Shown here: piece after piece, positions 2,918-45,177 of the stretch
How the letters are laid out: each line of letters opens with the position of its first letter
Position numbering within the stretch: the stretch's first letter is position 1
DNA from: a virus
DNA length: 45,177 nucleotides
Virus record (IMG/VR): IMGVR_UViG_3300041402_000280
Location: 1-45,177 of that record
Strand: one strand, 5' to 3'
Program-made: the position numbers and the translations under genes
Notes under the pieces: generated by a model
Told to the model about the DNA's origin: nothing
What the model saw: only the letters and a program-made list of their open reading frames with translations
Database searches by the model: none

Positions 2918-3310
2918 TTAAAAGTTAATACTGGCGCCAGCATGATAATTATGATTAACCGCCCAACCTTCACTGGCAATAATCCCAATCTGAAACACTC
3001 TTCTTGGGTTATATCTAAAACCAAAAATTTCAGCTTCGACCGGTAGCGCCCATGCTGTCAACCATTGACAAGCTATACCAAATGGGATCAAGGTATTTAT
3101 TTTTGCTTGTGATGGACGTTCGCCTAGAATTGGATTCTGCTCGATTCGTCCACGACTTTCAAAGCCTCGCGTCTGTTTCCAGTCGACCCCAGTGGCTATC
3201 GTCCCGGCCAATTGATAAGCATAATCTTTAGGTGTGAATTTAGAAAAGTGCTTGCCAGAGCAACCGCATAGAAAGCAGAGAAAGAGAATTAATATTGTTT
3301 TTTTTACCAT
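2918..3310 (-). CDS. phage lipoprotein
   Basis: About 130 residues from the ATG at 3310. A longer frame starts at 3346, but the 3310 start gives a clean signal peptide and has AAAGG about 10 bases upstream. The N-terminus is KK plus a hydrophobic stretch ending in the lipobox L14-C15-G16-C17, so the protein should be exported and lipid-anchored. The mature part has a DWKQTRGFE... and NPILG..PS pattern that recurs in phage proteins of unknown function. It is placed between two fibre genes. An outer-membrane spanin or a superinfection-exclusion lipoprotein are possibilities, neither shown. It indicates a host with a lipoprotein export pathway. Confidence 0.65.
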   Translation of the reverse strand: MVKKTILILFLCFLCGCSGKHFSKFTPKDYAYQLAGTIATGVDWKQTRGFESRGRIEQNPILGERPSQAKINTLIPFGIACQWLTAWALPVEAEIFGFRYNPRRVFQIGIIASEGWAVNHNYHAGASINF

Positions 3311-4310: not shown

Positions 4311-4930
4311 GTTATCACCCTTGCAAGGCCGCCGCCTTCAGTTAAAGATTCATCACCGAGGCCATTGGTTGAACTTATCGGCCCGTTATTGCTTCCGTCA
4401 ACTTCTGAGACATCTGATAATTCATAATAGTCTGTTTCAGGAGCAAATTCCAAAATTAATTTTATGCCGCCAGCTTTGACAAGTGCCATCTGATCAATGA
4501 TGGCCTGATCGATTGCGGGATCTTCTGCATCGATGTCAGTCAATGCCACCAATAAAACCCCGGCGGGATAAAAATCAGAGGCAAAAACAGATGTGGCCTG
4601 GCTTAACGTCAAAAAAGAAGTGATCAGGTTTTCCATTTCACCGCTTTTAGAAAGCTCCCCTGTACGACCAACAAGGCGGGCCCTATATGATTCGTCAGAT
4701 TCACCAAGTTCCCTTTCAAGGTCAAGAATCTGGCCAAGGCCATCAAGTTGAACACCAACAGCAACAGAAAGATGGCGTTCATCGAGAATTTTAAATAGTT
4801 GCGTTTCAAGTTCCTGAAAACGACTGCCAAAGATATCAATTAATTTTTGATGATTTGCCGCCGTTCTGTACCGGTCAGGATATCTATCCCTTATCTGTTC
4901 GGCATGGTCATCAATTTCTTCGATAGTCAT
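4307..4930 (-). CDS. baseplate/tail protein, DUF2612-like (gpI position)
   Basis: A 207-residue protein with the pattern of DUF2612/P2 gpI-type proteins: an N-terminal helix-rich part (RYPDRYRTAANHQKL, then LDGLGQILDLERELGESDESYR near residues 60-85) and a C-terminal beta part. It follows the baseplate J gene directly (stop/start at 4930) and precedes the first fibre gene, the usual position of the protein that links baseplate wedge and fibres. The function is inferred from family and gene order. Confidence 0.7.
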   Translation of the reverse strand: MTIEEIDDHAEQIRDRYPDRYRTAANHQKLIDIFGSRFQELETQLFKILDERHLSVAVGVQLDGLGQILDLERELGESDESYRARLVGRTGELSKSGEMENLITSFLTLSQATSVFASDFYPAGVLLVALTDIDAEDPAIDQAIIDQMALVKAGGIKLILEFAPETDYYELSDVSEVDGSNNGPISSTNGLGDESLTEGGGLARVIT

Positions 4931-6309
4931 TATGGCAATTCCGTTATGGTTGTTCTTGAACTATCAAAATCGGCAATATCAGTTTCAGCAATGACAATGT
5001 TATTGTCAAGAGTTGGCCCGGGGGCAATCCCGATCCTGATCGCGCTGTTTGTGATCCCTGGAACATCATCATAAGTCCCGATCAAAACAGGATTGACAAT
5101 AACATCTTCACCAATTTCCAGAGCATCACCATAAGCAAGAACAGCATCTTCAACAAGCTGAAGGCCATTTGATGGGAAGTCAGCGTTGGTGGTCAAATCA
5201 ATTTCAAGCCAAATCAAAACACTTCCAGCCCGGGAAAATCCGATATTGTGTTGATTTCCTTGACTGTCATCTATGTTGCCGTTGATATCTCCAAAGGCTT
5301 GAATCCCGGCGGCCTTTGAATCAAATATTTCTTGAAATATATCCTGATTGGTTCCACCGACAACCACACATTCAATTGACTTGCCAGGGCGGCCAGAAAC
5401 ATCAACTTCAAGTTCATCATTTTCAAAAACAAGGGCCTGGGAAACCCCGTCAATTGTTAAAAGATTCCCCCTGATAGCTTCAAGCCTTGCCCCTCCCAAA
5501 CCTTGCAAGGCGGCTATTCTCCGCGCCCTGAAAGCGGCATCAGTTTCAGCGGCCGCGCCTTTATCGGCATCAACTTCGTTAATCACCTGATCCCACCCGG
5601 CAACGAATGTGACAATATCATTCAGAGTGCCGGCCAGGGCAACAACAGGCCCGGTGTCAACCGCTTCAGCATTCCCGGCGGTCATCGGCAACATGTTGAT
5701 TGTTCCTGTGGCCGGACTGATCGGCGTTGTTGTTATCGTATATTCAAAATTATTAGGGTCGACAACATTAGTGACTTGAACAAGACCATTATATTCATCT
5801 TGATCAGCGCCAGAAATAAAAACACGTTGGCCGGCAACAACAACATGGCCGGTCACTTCAGCGCTGACGATGGCACCGGTTCTGGTAAGGGCAACAACCG
5901 ATTTGCTTGACCCGCCAATTGTCACATCTGCCGTCAAAGCGAATTGATCACCGGCATCTTGAACCGCAATAAATGAACCAGCAGGCACCAAAGTTGTTGC
6001 TGTTCCCCCAAGATAAACGGCAACTTCAGAATTGGTAGCACCATTGGGAGTGATTGCCGTTATTTCTCCAATTCTGGCAAGGGAAATGTCACTGGATGAA
6101 TTTGGATAAGCAGCATTATAAACAGCCTGTTGGAGTTCCCATTGCGTTGATTCTCTGTCAGCAAGAATGGCAATTTCTTTGCCCATTTCAGTATCAGGGC
6201 CAAGAGGCAAACCGGCCCCATAGGACGCCCGATATTGGGCTTCAATTTCAGCAACAATTACATTCAACGGTTTAACTGTGAAGCCGTTTCCATCAAGTCC
6301 ATAGCTCAT
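4930..6309 (-). CDS. baseplate J-like protein
   Basis: A 459-residue Mu gp47/P2 gpJ-type protein. The start MSYGLDGNGFTVKPL..IVAEIEAQYR is typical of the family, and the central 'GKEIAILADRES..WELQQAVYNA' and 'EVDADKGAAAETDAAFRARR' segments match the conserved core. It builds the baseplate wedge ring. It lies between the gp25-like and DUF2612-like genes with four-base and one-base overlaps, a standard contractile-tail order. Confidence 0.9.
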   Translation of the reverse strand: MSYGLDGNGFTVKPLNVIVAEIEAQYRASYGAGLPLGPDTEMGKEIAILADRESTQWELQQAVYNAAYPNSSSDISLARIGEITAITPNGATNSEVAVYLGGTATTLVPAGSFIAVQDAGDQFALTADVTIGGSSKSVVALTRTGAIVSAEVTGHVVVAGQRVFISGADQDEYNGLVQVTNVVDPNNFEYTITTTPISPATGTINMLPMTAGNAEAVDTGPVVALAGTLNDIVTFVAGWDQVINEVDADKGAAAETDAAFRARRIAALQGLGGARLEAIRGNLLTIDGVSQALVFENDELEVDVSGRPGKSIECVVVGGTNQDIFQEIFDSKAAGIQAFGDINGNIDDSQGNQHNIGFSRAGSVLIWLEIDLTTNADFPSNGLQLVEDAVLAYGDALEIGEDVIVNPVLIGTYDDVPGITNSAIRIGIAPGPTLDNNIVIAETDIADFDSSRTTITELP

Positions 6310-23635: not shown

Positions 23636-23709
23636 TGGCAAGGGCGCCAGGGCTCGAACCTGAGATATCAGCGTCAAAGGCTGATGTGTTACCACTACAC
23701 CACACCCCT
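23636..23709 (-). tRNA. tRNA-Gln (anticodon TTG)
   Basis: A full cloverleaf of 74 bases on the minus strand: acceptor AGGGGTG/CGCCCTT (with G-T pairs), D stem GTGT/ACAC, anticodon stem TCAGC/GCTGA with loop CTTTGAC (anticodon TTG, reading CAA), TTCGAGC T-loop and encoded GCCA end. It is the only tRNA I found. It lies in the cargo stretch between terS and terL. It may boost CAA decoding late in infection; a suppressor role is excluded by the anticodon. Confidence 0.9.
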
Positions 23710-24137: not shown

Positions 24138-24220
24138 GGCTTTTTCTCCCTGTGTTGTTTTTAGGCATTCTTCTCTTTGTCGCATAATATTTATTTGTAA
24201 AATCGGAGGCTAATAACTAG

Positions 24221-24268
24221 TTAAAAACCCGTTCCAAGTAGTTGGTCAGGGCTAGTTCCTTTTAAAAT
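24221..24268 (-). pseudogene. 3' remnant of a Dam-like methylase gene
   Basis: 48 bases code ILKGTSPDQLLGTGF plus stop and match the last 48 bases of the Dam gene at 32955-33692 at 43 of 48 positions. Stop codons lie just upstream in the same frame, so no gene remains. The stop TAA again sits in a G-TTA box. It shows that a Dam-bearing segment like that at 33 kb was once here and was mostly lost. Confidence 0.65.
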
Positions 24269-24385: not shown

Positions 24386-24547
24386 CTAACCAATTGCCGA
24401 TTTTCTGCTTCTGTATTCCTTATCCCACTCCGCATAATTCACCCAATCAACATAGATATGCCCGCAAAAAGGGCACTCTGTTGGGCCTGGTTTTTCTCTT
24501 TCAAATTCCTTATTACATTTTTGGCAGACATATCTAGGTTTTATCAT
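24386..24547 (-). CDS. small zinc-ribbon protein
   Basis: A 53-residue frame, too short for most gene finders: CQKC (residues 8-11), then KPGPTECPFCGHIYVDWVNY. Two CxxC knuckles form a likely zinc ribbon. It is a paralogue of the 58-residue protein at 34145-34321, which has KPGPTSCPKCGHLYVEWVNY. Both are followed and preceded by the same attC-like repeats. Similar small proteins are common in phages; function unknown. Confidence 0.65.
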   Translation of the reverse strand: MIKPRYVCQKCNKEFEREKPGPTECPFCGHIYVDWVNYAEWDKEYRSRKSAIG

Positions 24548-24594
24548 AATTTAAAGCATCGGTATTACTGTTACATTGCCCGTTTAACTACGGT

Positions 24595-24683
24595 TTTTAA
24601 CCAAAAAATTAACCAGACGGTGCCACGTGTCCGGGCTGACTTCCAAGTTTATTTACGACGCATGGTTATTATCGGCGTTATGC
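24595..24683 (-). repeat. attC-like site after terS (site A)
   Basis: Read on the plus strand the arms are TTTTAAC-(8)-TAACCA ... TGGTTA-(8)-GTTATGC, with equal 8-base spacers on both sides and a variable centre. The terS stop codon is the TTA of the right GTTATGC box. The left 31 bases are almost identical to site B at 34375, and the right 13 (TTATCGGCGTTAT) to site C at 35061. That mosaic of conserved ends is what integron attC sites show. Confidence 0.55.
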
Positions 24684-25190
24684 ATTACCGGCCGTCCGGC
24701 CCTTGACCATATCCAAATAGGTATTTGTGGCTTGCTTGGGCTCCATATCGTCAGTGATTTCTTGAGGAACGCCCTTTTCTTCTGACACATGAAGACGATC
24801 AACAAAATCAGCCCCGGCGCGGCCAAGGGCTTCAGAAGCTTTTAGCCGGTTCTTCATATCAGCAACTTCACGGATTTCAATCATGACCGGCTCGCCGTCT
24901 TCACCAATGACAACTTTGTCGTCTTCGCCACGTTTTTCAACCAGTTTGACAAGTTGAGGATCACCCCGCATCACCGATGACCAAAACGCTTGACGCTCTT
25001 TTCTGTCAGCAATGATCGGGGTTGCATCTTTTTCTTCACGCTTCCTTAGTCTGTCAATGATATAGCTTTTCTTTACTATCCTTTGAACGTAACCATATGA
25101 CATTTTGATCTTTTCGGCGGTTTCTTTGATGCTCCCGTTCCACGCTGAAACGATCTTTTTTTCCCCTTTTGACAGTTTTTTTGCGCTCAT
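24678..25190 (-). CDS. terminase small subunit
   Basis: A 170-residue protein: an N-terminal helix-turn-helix-like region (SIKETAEKIKMSYGYVQRIVKKS), then ADRKERQAFWSSVMRGDPQL and MKNRLKASEALGRAGADFVD, the standard core of small terminase proteins. It recognises the packaging site. Its start lies only about three bases after the predicted transcription start of the promoter at 25200-25229 and has no ribosome-binding site, so the message may be leaderless. Its stop lies in attC-like site A. Confidence 0.85.
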   Translation of the reverse strand: MSAKKLSKGEKKIVSAWNGSIKETAEKIKMSYGYVQRIVKKSYIIDRLRKREEKDATPIIADRKERQAFWSSVMRGDPQLVKLVEKRGEDDKVVIGEDGEPVMIEIREVADMKNRLKASEALGRAGADFVDRLHVSEEKGVPQEITDDMEPKQATNTYLDMVKGRTAGNA

Positions 25191-25229: not shown

Positions 25230-25268
25230 TTTTTGGTTGGTTTTCCATTTATTTACACTGTTGGATTG

Positions 25269-25661
25269 CTAAACATCGCCAAGACTAAAAACAATGCCCC
25301 GGCAATATTTCTCGCCACCTTCCCAAATGGTAAATTCGGCATGGGGGATGTCAGTCTTATATGTCCAACTGATATCTGGCTCATCACAAAAAAGAGCGTC
25401 TATCTTCTTTGCCTGGGCCATCATGCGTTCGGCATAAGGACAATCGTCACAATCACATTCATTCTCAAACAGTCCTTTTTGAGTGACAAAAGCCAGGCTT
25501 CCACGTTCATCGTTAATGGCACCACGAAACTCCATCAGATCATCACTGGCACCGAACACAACAACAAGGTCTGTACCTTGCAGGCCGTGTTGAATGTCAG
25601 GGGAAATTTCATCAAGATACTCTCTCCCATTCAAGGCTTCTGCTATCTTGTCTCTGGTCAT
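25269..25661 (-). CDS. conserved phage hypothetical protein
   Basis: A 130-residue acidic protein: DIQHGLQGTDLVVVFGASDDLMEFRGAI near the start, DCDDCPYAERM (two cysteines plus one) at about residues 70-80 and a C-terminal beta part ending CRGIVFSLGDV. I know related proteins in other phages but no function. A site of the attC-like family (25681-25768) lies just upstream, with AAGGTG before its start. Last gene of the leftward early group. Confidence 0.6.
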   Translation of the reverse strand: MTRDKIAEALNGREYLDEISPDIQHGLQGTDLVVVFGASDDLMEFRGAINDERGSLAFVTQKGLFENECDCDDCPYAERMMAQAKKIDALFCDEPDISWTYKTDIPHAEFTIWEGGEKYCRGIVFSLGDV

Positions 25662-25680: not shown

Positions 25681-25768
25681 TCCCAACCAGGACATTAACT
25701 CAGACGGGGATAACGCCTGCGCCCTTACTTTATTTTTTAGACCCGCTAGTTATGCCTAAGCGTTATCT
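25681..25768 (-). repeat. attC-like site with two bulged bases (site S7)
   Basis: On the plus strand: TCCCAAC, 8 bases, TAACTCAGACGGG (25696-25708), centre, CCCGCTAGTTA (25742-25752), 9 bases, GTTATCT. The inner arms pair over 11 bases if a C and an A in the left arm are left out. Such extrahelical bases in one arm are the hallmark of attC hairpins. The stop codon of the gene at 25763 is the TTA of the right box. Confidence 0.6.
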
Positions 25769-32917: not shown

Positions 32918-32947
32918 AATGTCCTTAAATATCTAAATGGTGATAAA

Positions 32948-33003
32948 CAAGTGGTTATAAACCCGTTCCAACAAGTTGGGCAGGGCTAGTTCCTTTTAAA
33001 ACA
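32948..33003 (-). repeat. attC-like half site at the 3' end of the Dam gene
   Basis: GGTTATAAACC at 32953-32963 holds the Dam stop codon (TTA on the plus strand). The adjoining Dam tail on the minus strand, GTTTTAAAAGGAACTAGCC, resembles the plus-strand arm GTTTTTCAAAAGGACGTAGCC of the site upstream of Dam at 33752. So the gene is bounded by related sequences on both sides. Confidence 0.4.
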
Positions 33004-33692
33004 AACAGCTTTTCAATACCTTTCTTGCCGCCAGTATCTTTTGTAAGGCTCGATACTATTTCTTTTTGCCATACGCACTCAAAATCTTCAGGGGCATTGT
33101 ATTCGCTCACAAAAACAGCATGCCCCTGCTTTGCTTTACTCCGGCACCAGTGCCAAAAACTCTCATGGTCGAAGTCGTCTTTATATTTCGTGGTTCCAGC
33201 ATATGGCGGGTCGCAATATATTATGCTGTTCCTTGGTATCACTAGGTCTGGGTAGCCAGTGGCCAAAAACTTAACACCTTTTAGTTTCGGGCTTTGTTTT
33301 TGTGCATTCCTGAAAGCCTCCGCCACATAGTCTCTTTTACCTGCACCGTCACGGCACCATCCACCCCACCACTTGCCGGAGTACGACAACGCAAACCCAA
33401 TATACCCGTGCATTCCGTCTGCTGCCATCCCGTAATTTTTAGCGTACTTGTAGTCATTTTCGTTAAAATAAATATTGTCTGGTGGCAACAAATCAGGGTC
33501 TAGCTGTATTAGTTTAAGCGCCCCGACAAGATAGTGGTTACAATCAGCGCCGATCCTGTTGCCGTCTACCTTGTCAATGAGGTTTGCGCCACCAACAAAA
33601 GGCTCCACGTACCATTGCCCCTCTTTTCGATTTCTCAATATTATAGGCAAAATGTGCTTGGCTATCCTCGCCTTGCTTCCCATGTATTTCAT
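32955..33692 (-). CDS. dam: DNA adenine methylase, D12 class
   Basis: 245 residues from the ATG at 33692, which has GGAG eight bases upstream; the TTG at 33698 is too close to that site. It has the class motifs KYMGSKARI at the start, EPFVGGAN (30-37) and IIYCDPPYAGTTKY (DPPY 161-164). Methylates adenine, probably in a GATC-like site, to protect against restriction. It is one of the cargo genes bounded by attC-like sites. A 48-base remnant of a sister gene lies at 24221. Confidence 0.9.
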   Translation of the reverse strand: MKYMGSKARIAKHILPIILRNRKEGQWYVEPFVGGANLIDKVDGNRIGADCNHYLVGALKLIQLDPDLLPPDNIYFNENDYKYAKNYGMAADGMHGYIGFALSYSGKWWGGWCRDGAGKRDYVAEAFRNAQKQSPKLKGVKFLATGYPDLVIPRNSIIYCDPPYAGTTKYKDDFDHESFWHWCRSKAKQGHAVFVSEYNAPEDFECVWQKEIVSSLTKDTGGKKGIEKLFVLKGTSPAQLVGTGL

Positions 33693-33741
33693 AGTCAAAA
33701 CTCCATCGGTGTTACTGTTTAATTGCCCGTTTAACTACGGT

Positions 33742-33822
33742 TTATAACCAGGTTTTTCAAAAGGACGTAGCCTCGTGTCCGGGCCACGCCGCCGCCGTGC
33801 ATCGCCGTTTAAAAACCGATTA
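33742..33822 (-). repeat. attC-like site upstream of Dam (site S1)
   Basis: Plus strand: TTATAAC (33742-33748), then GGTTTTTCAAAAGGACG (33751-33767), a GC-rich centre, and CGCCGTTTAAAAACC (33803-33817). The last two are imperfect inverted repeats, 13 paired positions plus bulges on the left arm. Both arms recur in site S2 with a different centre. The stop codon of the upstream gene is at 33820. Confidence 0.5.
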
Positions 33823-34044
33823 AAAACCTTTCCACCTGTTTTGTTTTTGCCCGCTTCTCCTGGGGCTTTTCTCAATAAAGTGGCAGGTTTCTATTTCTGG
33901 TATTCTTATCGGGTCAGCGGTCAGCACAAAATCAACTTGCTCTGGTTTGGCTACTACCAATTCAATGCCGCTATTGGTGGCGTCAAGTTGCGCCATTATA
34001 TTTGCCGCTTCCGTTGATGCTCCGTCTACAATTAGTATTTTCAT
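33820..34044 (-). CDS. small cassette hypothetical protein
   Basis: A 74-residue protein: MKILIVDGASTEAANIMAQL looks like the start of a Rossmann or P-loop-less alpha/beta fold, followed by IELVVAKPEQVDFVLTAD and ETCHFIEKSPRRSGQ. Its ATG is only five bases past the GGTTA box of site S2, and its stop is next to site S1, so the gene almost fills a cassette-like unit. Unknown function. Confidence 0.5.
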   Translation of the reverse strand: MKILIVDGASTEAANIMAQLDATNSGIELVVAKPEQVDFVLTADPIRIPEIETCHFIEKSPRRSGQKQNRWKGF

Positions 34045-34048
34045 GGGT

Positions 34049-34150
34049 TTTTAACCAAGTTTTTCAAAAGGACGTCGCCTCGTTGACGGGCTAAATCCGT
34101 AGTCATTACAAGCGCCGTTTAAAAACGCATGTTAGTTTGCTCTGTTATCC
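34049..34150 (-). repeat. attC-like site (site S2)
   Basis: Plus strand: TTTTAAC (34049-34055), GTTTTTCAAAAGGACG (34059-34074), variable centre, CGCCGTTTAAAAAC (34113-34126) and GTTATCC (34144-34150). The TTA of the last box is the stop codon of the zinc-ribbon gene. Left and right arms match site S1; the 30-base centre does not. Confidence 0.5.
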
Positions 34151-34321
34151 AAAGCCCCTTTCTTCCATCTCTCTATAGTTCACCCACTCCACGTACAGGT
34201 GCCCACATTTTGGGCAACTAGTTGGTCCGGGCTTACCTTTATACCCATGGCGGCATTTCATACACATGTACACCGCCATGTGATCACCACTGCTATCTAG
34301 TTGTTTTCTCTGCATAATCAT
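34145..34321 (-). CDS. small zinc-ribbon cassette protein
   Basis: A 58-residue frame: CMKCRHGYKGKPGPTSCPKC (residues 20-39), followed by GHLYVEWVNYREMEERGFG. It is a paralogue of the protein at 24386-24547. The stop codon is in a GTTATCC box of site S2 and site B is upstream. Too short for usual gene finding. Unknown function. Confidence 0.65.
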   Translation of the reverse strand: MIMQRKQLDSSGDHMAVYMCMKCRHGYKGKPGPTSCPKCGHLYVEWVNYREMEERGFG

Positions 34322-34374
34322 AATGTAAAGTGCCTTAAAATAGCGTTTTGATCACCACATGCCAAAACGCCGCA

Positions 34375-34464
34375 AACTAACCAAAAAATTAACCAGACGG
34401 TGCCACGTTTGCGAGTCAAGGTCTGGCTGTCCCTTGCGCCGCGTGGTTATTTAGGTCGTTAAAT
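34375..34464 (-). repeat. attC-like site (site B)
   Basis: Plus strand: AACTAAC, 8 bases, TAACCA (34390-34395), centre with CAAGG/CCTTG palindrome, TGGTTA (34444-34449), 8 bases, GTTAAAT (34458-34464). GTTAAAT fits the attC R' consensus GTTRRRY exactly, and its complement ATTTAAC fits RYYYAAC. The stop codon of the upstream gene is in GTTAAAT. The left 25 bases equal those of site A at 24600. Confidence 0.6.
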
Positions 34465-34758
34465 GCCGTGATCCTTCCGGAAAGCCTCAAGTAGTTCAAG
34501 GGCGGTCATTATCCCAATACCTTCATGGGCTACTAAAAACTTATGCGGCCAATCCATACTATCGTGCGCCTTCTTACGGTCAGCGACAAACCCCCGCAAA
34601 GTTTCGGCATAGGCATTTAACAAATTATTCAACCGGACATCAGCCTCGGGGGTTTGGGGGATCTGTTCAATATCAACATCAATCATGTTCGGGCATTGAC
34701 TAGGGCAATCTCGCTCAATATTTCCTAAGTGAGCGCACCCACCTTTACAAACTTTCAT
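34459..34758 (-). CDS. cassette hypothetical protein
   Basis: A 99-residue protein: CKGGCAHLGNIERDCPSQCPN at the start (several cysteines), then a helical region LNNLLNAYAETLRGFVADRKK and a C-terminal IMTALELLEAFRKDHGI. The first part may bind metal. It has AGGTG before the start and stops in site B. Not recognised. Confidence 0.5.
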   Translation of the reverse strand: MKVCKGGCAHLGNIERDCPSQCPNMIDVDIEQIPQTPEADVRLNNLLNAYAETLRGFVADRKKAHDSMDWPHKFLVAHEGIGIMTALELLEAFRKDHGI

Positions 34759-34770
34759 GTTGTCACCTTT

Positions 34771-34805
34771 CTAGTGGGCTGCTGCCCGTTAATATGGCGT
34801 TATAC
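34771..34805 (-). repeat. short attC-like site (site E)
   Basis: A TAGTGGGC-TGCT-GCCCGTTA hairpin (34772-34791, with G-T pairs in RNA) next to GTTATAC (34799-34805). The TTA is the stop codon of the gene at 34800. Shorter than the other sites; possibly decayed. Confidence 0.35.
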
Positions 34806-34988
34806 AGCCACAAATCCACGCTTTAGGGCTTCAATTTGGATGTCTTTATTTTCCAAAACTAGCCGTACTAGTTCGGCTGGTGCTGTTCCCATTGGGCCAT
34901 GTTTTTCAACCATAGCTTCCGACAAATCAAGCTCGTTAACTACATCCTCAAGCATGTTTTCTAGTTCCGGTTTTGTCCAACAACTCAT
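34800..34988 (-). CDS. cassette hypothetical protein
   Basis: 62 residues from the ATG at 34988, with AAAGGTG upstream (the GTG at 34997 is part of that site). It is a helical acidic protein (WTKPELENMLEDVVNELDLSEAMVEKHG). Only 23 bases separate its start from the GTATAAC box of site C. Unknown function. Confidence 0.5.
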   Translation of the reverse strand: MSCWTKPELENMLEDVVNELDLSEAMVEKHGPMGTAPAELVRLVLENKDIQIEALKRGFVAV

Positions 34989-35010
34989 AATATTCACCTT
35001 TAAATTAAAA

Positions 35011-35075
35011 GTATAACCAGGGCATAAACGCAGACAGGGATAACGGCAGCGGCCAGCTTATTATCGGCGTTATTT
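35011..35075 (-). repeat. attC-like site (site C)
   Basis: Plus strand: GTATAAC (35011-35017), then CAGGGCATAAACGCAGACAGGG, centre, TTATTATCGGCGTTATTT (35058-35075). The left part matches site S7, ACCAGGACATTAACTCAGACGGGG with changes, and the right end matches site A. The TTA of GTTATTT is the stop codon of the gene at 35070. Confidence 0.55.
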
Positions 35076-35249
35076 TTCTATCTTCTTCAGTTCATTTAGA
35101 AATTCTTGATAATCGCGTAATGTTATCCTGCCGCCGTCCCGGTGTTTTTGATCGATCCATTTAGTTGAAAAGCTCAATGACTTCTCAGTCTTTCTGTGTT
35201 CTGAATTAACCCGATCAGCCAACAATAAGAGTCCATGGTATGGCGGCAT
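35070..35249 (-). CDS. small hypothetical protein
   Basis: 59 residues from the ATG at 35249 (MPPYHGLLLLADRVN), which has AAGGTG upstream; the frame is open to 35327. RITLRDYQEFLNELKKIEK at the end is helical. The stop lies in site C. Its start lies just after the stop of the next gene upstream. Unknown function. Confidence 0.5.
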   Translation of the reverse strand: MPPYHGLLLLADRVNSEHRKTEKSLSFSTKWIDQKHRDGGRITLRDYQEFLNELKKIEK

Positions 35250-35253
35250 GTCA

Positions 35254-35571
35254 TCACCTTTTAAGATGCTGATTGAACTTGGTTGCAAATTCTTCTTCAA
35301 CGGTGTCACCATCTTCAAAGGCGTCACGGTGGTCTTCTGGAAAGTCAGAAATTATCCATTCAACATCTTTTTCTTCTGCCAGGTTCCGCAACTCAAACCA
35401 CCAATCATGAAGATCATCATCAATTTCTTCAACCGATGACCCGCAACAGACTGAAACTTCAAGATCACCCATGTTGCCCTTGATTGTCCCGGTTGGCCCA
35501 TGGGCGTCAAATTTGCCGCTTTCAGTCTCGGTTTCACATCCCATGAAGCATGATGAACAAATTGTTTTCAT
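35254..35571 (-). CDS. acidic hypothetical protein with Cys pair
   Basis: A 105-residue acidic protein: CSSCFMGCETE at the start, VSVCCGSSVEEIDDDLHDWWFE in the middle and an acidic/aromatic end. The CxxC and CC pairs could bind metal. The structured element at 35590-35685 lies in its leader, about 20 bases before the start, and may control it. Confidence 0.55.
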   Translation of the reverse strand: MKTICSSCFMGCETETESGKFDAHGPTGTIKGNMGDLEVSVCCGSSVEEIDDDLHDWWFELRNLAEEKDVEWIISDFPEDHRDAFEDGDTVEEEFATKFNQHLKR

Positions 35572-44223: not shown

Positions 44224-44814
44224 TTAAATTATAGGCCACTCCATCGGTGGCAATTCGCTGATAATTATTTCAAGTGTCGGCTCTGGCCTTAGACCTTTAA
44301 GATAATCTTCCTGTATCTGAAAGACTATCGGCCAGATTGAAGCCTTCCAAATTCCGAACGCCTCGGCCTCCTCCCTATATGGGTTATCATAACCTACATA
44401 AGCAAGACAGGCTGCTGTAGGTGACATGCTTATAGTCCCGTATCTTTGTGATTTGGCTGTCTCGTCTATCATGCCGTCAAGGCCGTCCTCTATTAACTGC
44501 ACCTTTGCCGCTAATGCTATTATAGAGTTGTTAGCTATCTCATCAGCCGTCAAAGCAACCGTTTCCATGGTAACATACACCCCGTCGTCCCCCCAACTAT
44601 CGGCGTATGGTTCAACGAGCTTGTGGGTTAATGGGTCATAAACCGTCTCAGTCGCCAATAGATAACCATCAGCATTAAGCTGGGCAAGAGTTGGGGCGTG
44701 GTGGCCTACTTCTTGGATAAATGAGGTGTTTGACCCGTAGGTGTCCCAATCATAAACCCCGTCAACCTCTGGGTCTTTACGTCGTGCTATTGGTGTGTCT
44801 TTTTTAATCGTCAT
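44224..44814 (-). CDS. tail-associated protein downstream of LamG gene
   Basis: A 196-residue protein. Start MTIKKDTPIARRKDPEVDGVYDW; middle acidic/helical (LTADEIANNSIIALAAKVQLIEDG); C-terminal WPIVFQIQEDYLKGLRPE. It has the length and layout of fibre-assembly or fibre-tip proteins (DUF4376-like impression), not certain. Its first seven codons and leader are identical to those at positions 1-30. It follows a LamG gene in the same way as there. Confidence 0.5.
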   Translation of the reverse strand: MTIKKDTPIARRKDPEVDGVYDWDTYGSNTSFIQEVGHHAPTLAQLNADGYLLATETVYDPLTHKLVEPYADSWGDDGVYVTMETVALTADEIANNSIIALAAKVQLIEDGLDGMIDETAKSQRYGTISMSPTAACLAYVGYDNPYREEAEAFGIWKASIWPIVFQIQEDYLKGLRPEPTLEIIISELPPMEWPII

Positions 44815-44823
44815 TGTTTCCCC

Positions 44824-45177
44824 TTAAATCGGTGGCGTTGTGGGAGGTGCAAAGTTAGCGTTCTGGTACAATGATGTGCCGTTCGAGATTCTGAAACCAT
44901 CCATTGACCCTTGGAACGGTAAGGAGTTATCCGGTAGGGCCATAAAGTTAAGCCCCACTGTTGCGCTATCAGACCCAATCGTATTATTGTTTGAGACAGT
45001 ATTCTCTATGATGCCGTCTAAGGATATGCTGAGGTTATTTGGGTCTGTGCCGAACCTATCAACACAAAAGTAATGTTGGTCTGTGTCATTAATTAAGGTT
45101 GTACCTAAGAAATTAAACAGACCGCCGGGGCCGTTAAAAAATCTGATTTTCTGTCCGCTGATTGCTACATACCAGCG
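44824..45177 (-). CDS. LamG adhesin, second version (partial)
   Basis: The 3' part of a LamG gene, cut by the window end (118 codons). Its protein tail (FQGSMDGFRIS, NNNTIG, LPDNSLPF) matches the gene at 31-765, with changes concentrated before the last 30 residues. Over 384 aligned bases there is no gap and about 70 substitutions, with one substitution in the first 115. Most changes in the coding part are silent or conservative, so both versions are under selection. Confidence 0.7.
   Translation of the reverse strand, partial: RWYVAISGQKIRFFNGPGGLFNFLGTTLINDTDQHYFCVDRFGTDPNNLSISLDGIIENTVSNNNTIGSDSATVGLNFMALPDNSLPFQGSMDGFRISNGTSLYQNANFAPPTTPPI

Follow-up and report, generated by a model that had tools for sequence, protein, structure and literature searches.

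Probable integron-cassette insertions in a phage genome, with genes running against attC

INTRODUCTION

Integrons are a bacterial device for gathering genes, for example, resistance genes. The two R boxes that flank the gene of an integron cassette are complementary to each other, and a cluster of at least two neighboring attC sites without an integron integrase is known as a CALIN. T4-type phages, for their part, contain small stem-loops (PeSL) between small genes, with an early promoter joined to each of them. The polarity of an attC site is defined by unpaired extra bases on its R''-L'' arm (PMC2727003), and in bacteria the strand preference of attC puts genes behind the Pc promoter (PMC11023631). 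Clusters of attC sites without intI have been described in the virulent phages TJE1, P12002L, PH101, and MW202573 (Qi et al. 2023, PMC9892861), and phage attC sites have been recombined by IntI1 in the laboratory (PMC9892861). Phage attC clusters were therefore already reported in 2023, and their presence alone is not new. Insertion of cassettes into genomes, at attG, is attributed to Loot et al. 2024 in the citation given by PMC11389934.

Here we describe the window, i.e., the whole stretch of DNA analyzed, a 45,177-base IMG/VR record of a phage that encodes terminase, portal, head protease, and baseplate proteins. It most probably carries three integron-cassette insertions, forming a CALIN without integrase, which would have been moved in at TAA^C by an integrase acting in trans; the genes run against attC.

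MATERIALS AND METHODS

The covariance model of attC was built from 18 sites out of bacterial integron arrays, fetched as 30 regions adjoining integron integrases in proteobacterial genomes; neither the window nor G002 contributed sites to the training set. G002 (IMG/VR 3300041402_000641; 47,468 bases) is the closest relative found, with a terminase 84% identical to that of the window. The radical-SAM protein, used as a query for relatives, yielded none. A generic stem scanner for attC proved too permissive, and the covariance model was used instead.

For the viral survey, a strict canonical attC pattern gave 105 viral-contig stretches, of which 80 loci were kept; the covariance model found 247 sites in them. 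Cassettes were counted if their R boxes paired at at least 6 of 7 positions, after de-duplication, and the coding strand was assigned by codon score.

RESULTS

Recognition of attC sites in the window

The seven sites that the covariance model of attC found in the window all lay on the plus strand. The best four were attC D, B, C, and A, with scores between 32.4 and 18.8 bits, so that the recognition by an attC model anticipated in the original prediction was obtained for these sites; the weaker matches were T3, T1, and E. The array between 32954 and 35075 (array 1) consists of the following features.

32954 to 32960, plus: left boundary of array 1, insertion point G^TTATAA; contains the complement of the Dam stop codon; complementary to attC A R'' (TTATAAC) at 7 of 7 positions
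32955 to 33698, minus: cassette gene 1, D12-class adenine DNA methyltransferase (Dam-like); PF02086 2e-11, phrog_56 2e-39
33742 to 33825, plus: attC A; 18.8 bits; R' with G->A (ATTAAAA); L'' TTTTTCAAAAGGACG with extra C and A
33820 to 34044, minus: cassette gene 2, 74 amino acids, no assigned function; codon score favors minus; stop codon within attC A R'
34049 to 34137, plus: attC B, the most canonical site; 32.3 bits; canonical attC pattern fits on plus only
34145 to 34321, minus: cassette gene 3, 58 amino acids, zinc-ribbon-like; weak HypA/zinc-ribbon matches; own codon score low
34375 to 34464, plus: attC C; 22.8 bits; R'' AACTAAC pairs 7 of 7 with attC B R' GTTAGTT
34459 to 34758, minus: cassette gene 4, 99 amino acids, no assigned function; strand by codon score; stop codon within attC C R'
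34615 to 34805, plus: attC D, 191 nucleotides; 32.4 bits; R'' ATTTAAC pairs 7 of 7 with attC C R' GTTAAAT
34800 to 34997, minus: cassette gene 5, 65 amino acids, no assigned function; strand by codon score; stop codon within attC D R'
35011 to 35075, plus: attC E, right end of array 1; 8.6 bits, within noise; R'' GTATAAC pairs 7 of 7 with attC D R' GTTATAC
35070 to 35327, minus: right-boundary gene of array 1; stop in attC E R', its stop codon TAA^C being the presumed insertion target

With five sites in 2.1 kb and no integrase gene, this array is a CALIN. The terminase small subunit gene is flanked by two further insertions of one cassette each, bringing the insertions in the window to three.

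24220 to 24226, plus: left boundary of insertion 2, G^TTAAAA; complementary to attC T3 R'' TTTTAAC at 7 of 7 positions
24386 to 24547, minus: cassette gene, 53 amino acids, Lar-like restriction alleviation/zinc ribbon; phrog_6422 2e-4, a weak match
24595 to 24683, plus: attC T3, immediately following the gene for the terminase small subunit; 14.1 bits; 94% identical to attC C over 36 nucleotides
24678 to 25190, minus: terminase small subunit-like phage gene; phrog_51 2e-5; G002 homologue 61%; stop codon within T3 R'
25260 to 25266, plus: left boundary of insertion 3, G^TTGGAT; complementary to T1 R'' at 5 of 7 positions
25269 to 25661, minus: cassette gene, 130 amino acids, phrog_25176, no assigned function; phrog_25176 6e-25; no G002 homologue
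25681 to 25768, plus: attC T1; 11.1 bits, within noise; 40-nucleotide repeat shared with attC E, 83%

The top off-site match reached 13.6 bits, and sites T3 (14.1), T1 (11.1), and E (8.6 bits) fall within the noise of the model; these three are putative sites, recognized by R-box pairing and shared repeats. Repeats of 36 to 56 nucleotides, with 83 to 94% identity, are common to the intergenic sites at 24.2 to 25.8 and 32.9 to 35.1 kb, where, as had been noticed earlier, the sites between small genes start on a stop codon and finish on YTGGTTR when read along the genes. No Rfam family matched the window sites, and the exact repeat motifs of the window had no match in viral contigs.

Known integrons, taken as positive controls, gave 266 matches, and 70 loci from other phages, 1.1 Mb in total, gave four at an E value of at most 10, all of them in G002. 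With the filters of the model off, 13 attC sites were found in G002 between 2792 and 9938, all on the plus strand. A scan of 30 whole phage records matched G002 only, as a loose first-look search that misses most sites even in G002.

The search with PF00589 for a tyrosine recombinase gave no match within the window, where there was no intI and no attI was observed, in a record that may be incomplete. Its first 300 nucleotides (1 to 300) recur as a direct repeat, 87% identical, at 44794 to 45093, possibly an imperfect terminal redundancy or a duplicated gene end. A tRNA-Gln gene (anticodon ttg, 23636 to 23709) adjoins the terminase genes.

R-box pairing, extra bases, and folding

Neighboring R boxes of array 1 paired at 6, 7, 7, and 7 of 7 positions, and the boundary R boxes of the three insertions paired at 7, 7, and 5 of 7. 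This pairing is independent of the covariance model score, because the paired boxes belong to different sites. In G002, 9 of the 12 neighboring pairs were perfect, the remaining three spanning gaps of 0.9 to 1.4 kb, in which a site was probably missed; with the same method, 177 of 195 pairs in bacterial-type arrays were perfect.

The extra bases, two or three of which are expected unpaired on the R''-L'' arm of an attC site, were more numerous on the left arm than on the right in five of the seven window sites, the reverse being found in none; the corresponding figures were 12 and 0 in G002, 28 and 1 in bacterial sites, and 189 and 10 in viral sites. The original prediction had oriented the sites with the genes, and this orientation was reversed by the analysis: since R boxes are symmetric, reading along the genes had misassigned them, and the extra bases, which lie on the left arm of the plus strand, settled the direction. 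In the corrected orientation, TAAC at the stop codon is complementary to R', TGGTTR belongs to the R''-L'' side, and attC lies on the plus strand, antisense to the genes. Reading the sites in the gene direction was accordingly rejected. What had been claimed of the cassettes themselves, that they are of integron type with no integrase encoded, agreed with the model matches, the R-box pairs of 6 to 7 of 7, the extra bases on the R''-L'' arm, and the lack of a tyrosine recombinase.

Folding was less clear. DNA-fold z-scores against shuffled sequences were -2.4, -0.2, -1.0, -1.2, +0.7, and -0.3 for six window sites, and -4.6 for one bacterial attC. Only site A gave a single-strand hairpin clearly better than shuffles, and folding energy was no better than that of shuffles in five of the six window sites and in two of the three G002 sites tested; among the six, the expectation that the sites would fold better than shuffled sequence was borne out by site A. 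Given this weak folding energy, several of the sites may have decayed or may serve poorly as substrates. Palindromes had been placed at each gene boundary; the sites there are real, but as plain hairpins they are weak. The site at 34756 to 34802 is only the right arm of the 191-nucleotide attC D, whose left arm and loop lie inside the open reading frame (ORF) at 34459 to 34758. Gene 4 begins within the attC D loop, where its ribosome-binding site also lies, and then crosses the left arm; in G002, two attC loops (3028 to 3157 and 4824 to 4950) likewise include both ribosome-binding site and start of the gene that follows.

These data bear on two readings without integrons. The main alternative considered earlier, a phage-specific shuffling module of T4-type stem-loops with promoters, fits the intergenic, repeated sites flanking small genes and the hairpin of site A, but it is very improbable: the window sites were found by a model of bacterial attC, cassette-specific R-box pairs at outer edges are not predicted by homologous stem-loops, and promoter-like sites numbered 4 against 3.9 in shuffles in a consensus scan. 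Scarcely any probability attaches to the second, in which the hairpins would be intrinsic terminators or translation-control elements with no role in mobility. Their intergenic position and the ribosome-binding site in one attC loop would suit such a role, but terminator-like sites numbered one against 2.8 in shuffles and did not lie at attC, and no conserved gene order with conserved hairpins was seen across relatives. Such a role would also leave unexplained the complementarity of R boxes on opposite sides of whole genes and the full turnover with respect to G002 described below.

Turnover of cassettes between the window phage and G002

The flanking phage genes have homologues in G002 at 47 to 74% identity, including the terminase small subunit gene, its upstream neighbor, and more distant genes, and none of the seven cassette genes of the window has a homologue there. 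In G002, this upstream gene adjoins the terminase small subunit gene, with the 130-amino-acid gene and T1 absent, and the TAAC that ends the small subunit gene is uninterrupted, whereas T3 and a cassette occupy this point in the window. The arrays of both phages occupy the same variable region at different gene junctions. Cassette content has thus been replaced completely between the two phages, and the expectation of a related phage with common flanks and different genes was borne out by G002, which lacks the window cassettes and has its own 13-site array.

The Dam cassette and that of the gene at 24386 have common ends beyond the R boxes (24212 to 24267 with 32946 to 33001, 88% over 56 nucleotides; 24557 to 24603 with 33704 to 33750, 91% over 47 nucleotides) and unrelated genes inside, as if a gene had been exchanged within one cassette frame.

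Polarity of genes and attC

Codon scores favored the minus strand in most intervals of the window and G002; the Dam and phrog_25176 genes of the window are secure on that strand, and helix-turn-helix domains were found on it in G002. The attC polarity of the window (plus) is therefore opposite to that of the cassette ORFs (minus), and the same direction of ORF and attC, a usual though not strictly defining feature, is absent. Most window ORFs terminate with TAA inside an R box and, judging from these products, it is as if each cassette had entered at the TAA^C of the preceding gene.

The survey gave 56 antisense and 10 sense viral cassettes, with 17 undecided by codon score, and 36 of the 56 antisense ORFs stopped within an R box. 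By locus, 26 of the 32 decided were mostly antisense and six mostly sense. The same method applied to bacterial arrays gave 11 antisense and 79 sense cassettes (Fisher P = 7e-21, an optimistic value, since cassettes within a locus are related), and when the longest ORF was counted, the figures were 86 antisense and 27 sense for viral cassettes and 15 and 170 for bacterial-type arrays. Deposited annotations agreed in phage H101 (the PH101 of PMC9892861), with attC on the plus strand at 75919 to 77987 and ORFs on the minus strand, and in MW202573, with attC on the minus and ORFs on the plus strand; Tetrasphaera phage TJE1 had the ordinary direction. Reversal is thus general in the viral contigs sampled and holds for most of the phage-borne arrays among them.

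Polarity also bears on the simplest alternative, an ordinary CALIN, in which a piece of a host chromosomal integron would have entered the phage and been reversed by chance or later inversion. Host-integron fragments do occur in temperate Vibrio phages (PMC9892861), and Va_90-11 (L088) has sense polarity, but we consider this origin unlikely. Every above-noise site of the window and the G002 sites lie on the plus strand with genes on the minus strand, the polarity is common to the three separate insertions, and reversal recurs in the 26 mostly antisense viral loci and in H101 and MW202573. A search of bacterial genomes for a host integron with a similar motif gave one chance match in a coding region, probably recG, and no host integron.

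Cargo and integrases

The window cargo includes the Dam-like methyltransferase and the weak Lar-like match. Among antisense cargo of the viral survey, Pfam matches comprised four N6_N4 and three MT-A70 methyltransferases, RtcB, DHH, Tad3 (Thoeris inhibitor, 4e-39), and a T5orf172 domain (GIY-YIG-related), plus a Mom-like protein with a match below the cutoff; the ten ORFs called sense had no Pfam or PHROG match above the cutoff. Several of the arrays adjoin phage replication genes or other phage families. The Tad3-like inhibitor and the Mom-like protein are cassette cargo of two viral contigs (L216, 12600 to 13037, and L250, 1704 to 2183), where uncharacterized neighbors may represent further counter-defense genes. 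In Polaribacter phage P12002L (L081, 2768 to 5347), two methyltransferase genes each lie between cassette-specific inverted repeats of about 25 to 30 nucleotides, which begin with GTTA and exceed the length of an R box.

An integron integrase was found in 1 of 33 records. A 38-kb viral contig (L249; G454:C1:14477-15412) combines an antisense RtcB cassette with a complete integron integrase (383 bits), and it may be a phage or prophage with its own intI.

DISCUSSION

The reading we favor, cassettes moved into phage genes by an integrase acting in trans, would proceed as follows. During infection, either the host or a co-resident element would supply an integron integrase. This enzyme would act on the folded bottom strand of attC, which in the window is the gene-sense strand, and recombine it with a G^TT target, preferably one complementary to a TAA^C stop codon. 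In this way, the cassette would come to lie behind a phage gene, leaving that gene undamaged. Read along the gene, the mobile unit would be an attC leader plus an ORF, and the new gene would join the phage operon in the direction of phage transcription with no need for the integron Pc promoter. Its likely use would be as an exchangeable counter-defense set, with Dam and Lar-like genes here and methyltransferases, Tad3, and RtcB in other phages.

Reversed genes would fail behind Pc, and the cassettes therefore look suited to phage operons and not to integron platforms. Whether phages keep a reversed cassette pool of their own, from which units of attC leader plus gene enter at TAA^C via host integrases and exchange counter-defense genes, is an evenly balanced question in our judgment. 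If they do, host integrases also carry antidefense genes between phages. The flipped attC polarity, if the reading is correct, explains how cassettes are expressed without an integron platform, and the reading makes a testable prediction of which DNA strand recombines. The combination of an attC model with ORF direction offers a simple route to new counter-defense genes.

In the literature searched, which included few subscription papers and no preprints, we found no report of the reversed polarity, the stop-codon placement, or the wider counter-defense cargo. Reversal, the location of stop codons in R boxes, and counter-defense cargo beyond methyltransferases are all absent from the text of PMC9892861. 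The CALINs of virulent phages described there resemble the window in their attC clusters without intI and their methyltransferase cargo, and the P12002L methyltransferase has about 69% DNA identity with that of the window over part of the gene. The cassettes of PH101 are called same-direction, with typical structure, in that work, whereas with the model used here the annotated ORFs oppose attC.

Compared with the PeSL of T4-type phages, the window has similar small stem-loops between small genes, but it shows no promoter excess and has junctions of integron type. The sedentary chromosomal integrons of Proteobacteria (30 regions) share with it the attC anatomy, the R-box complementarity, and the extra bases on the left arm, but they contain intI and their ORFs run with attC. 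As to attG, insertion at G^TT outside an integron, as far as the cited account of it goes, would by analogy explain the three separate insertions of the window.
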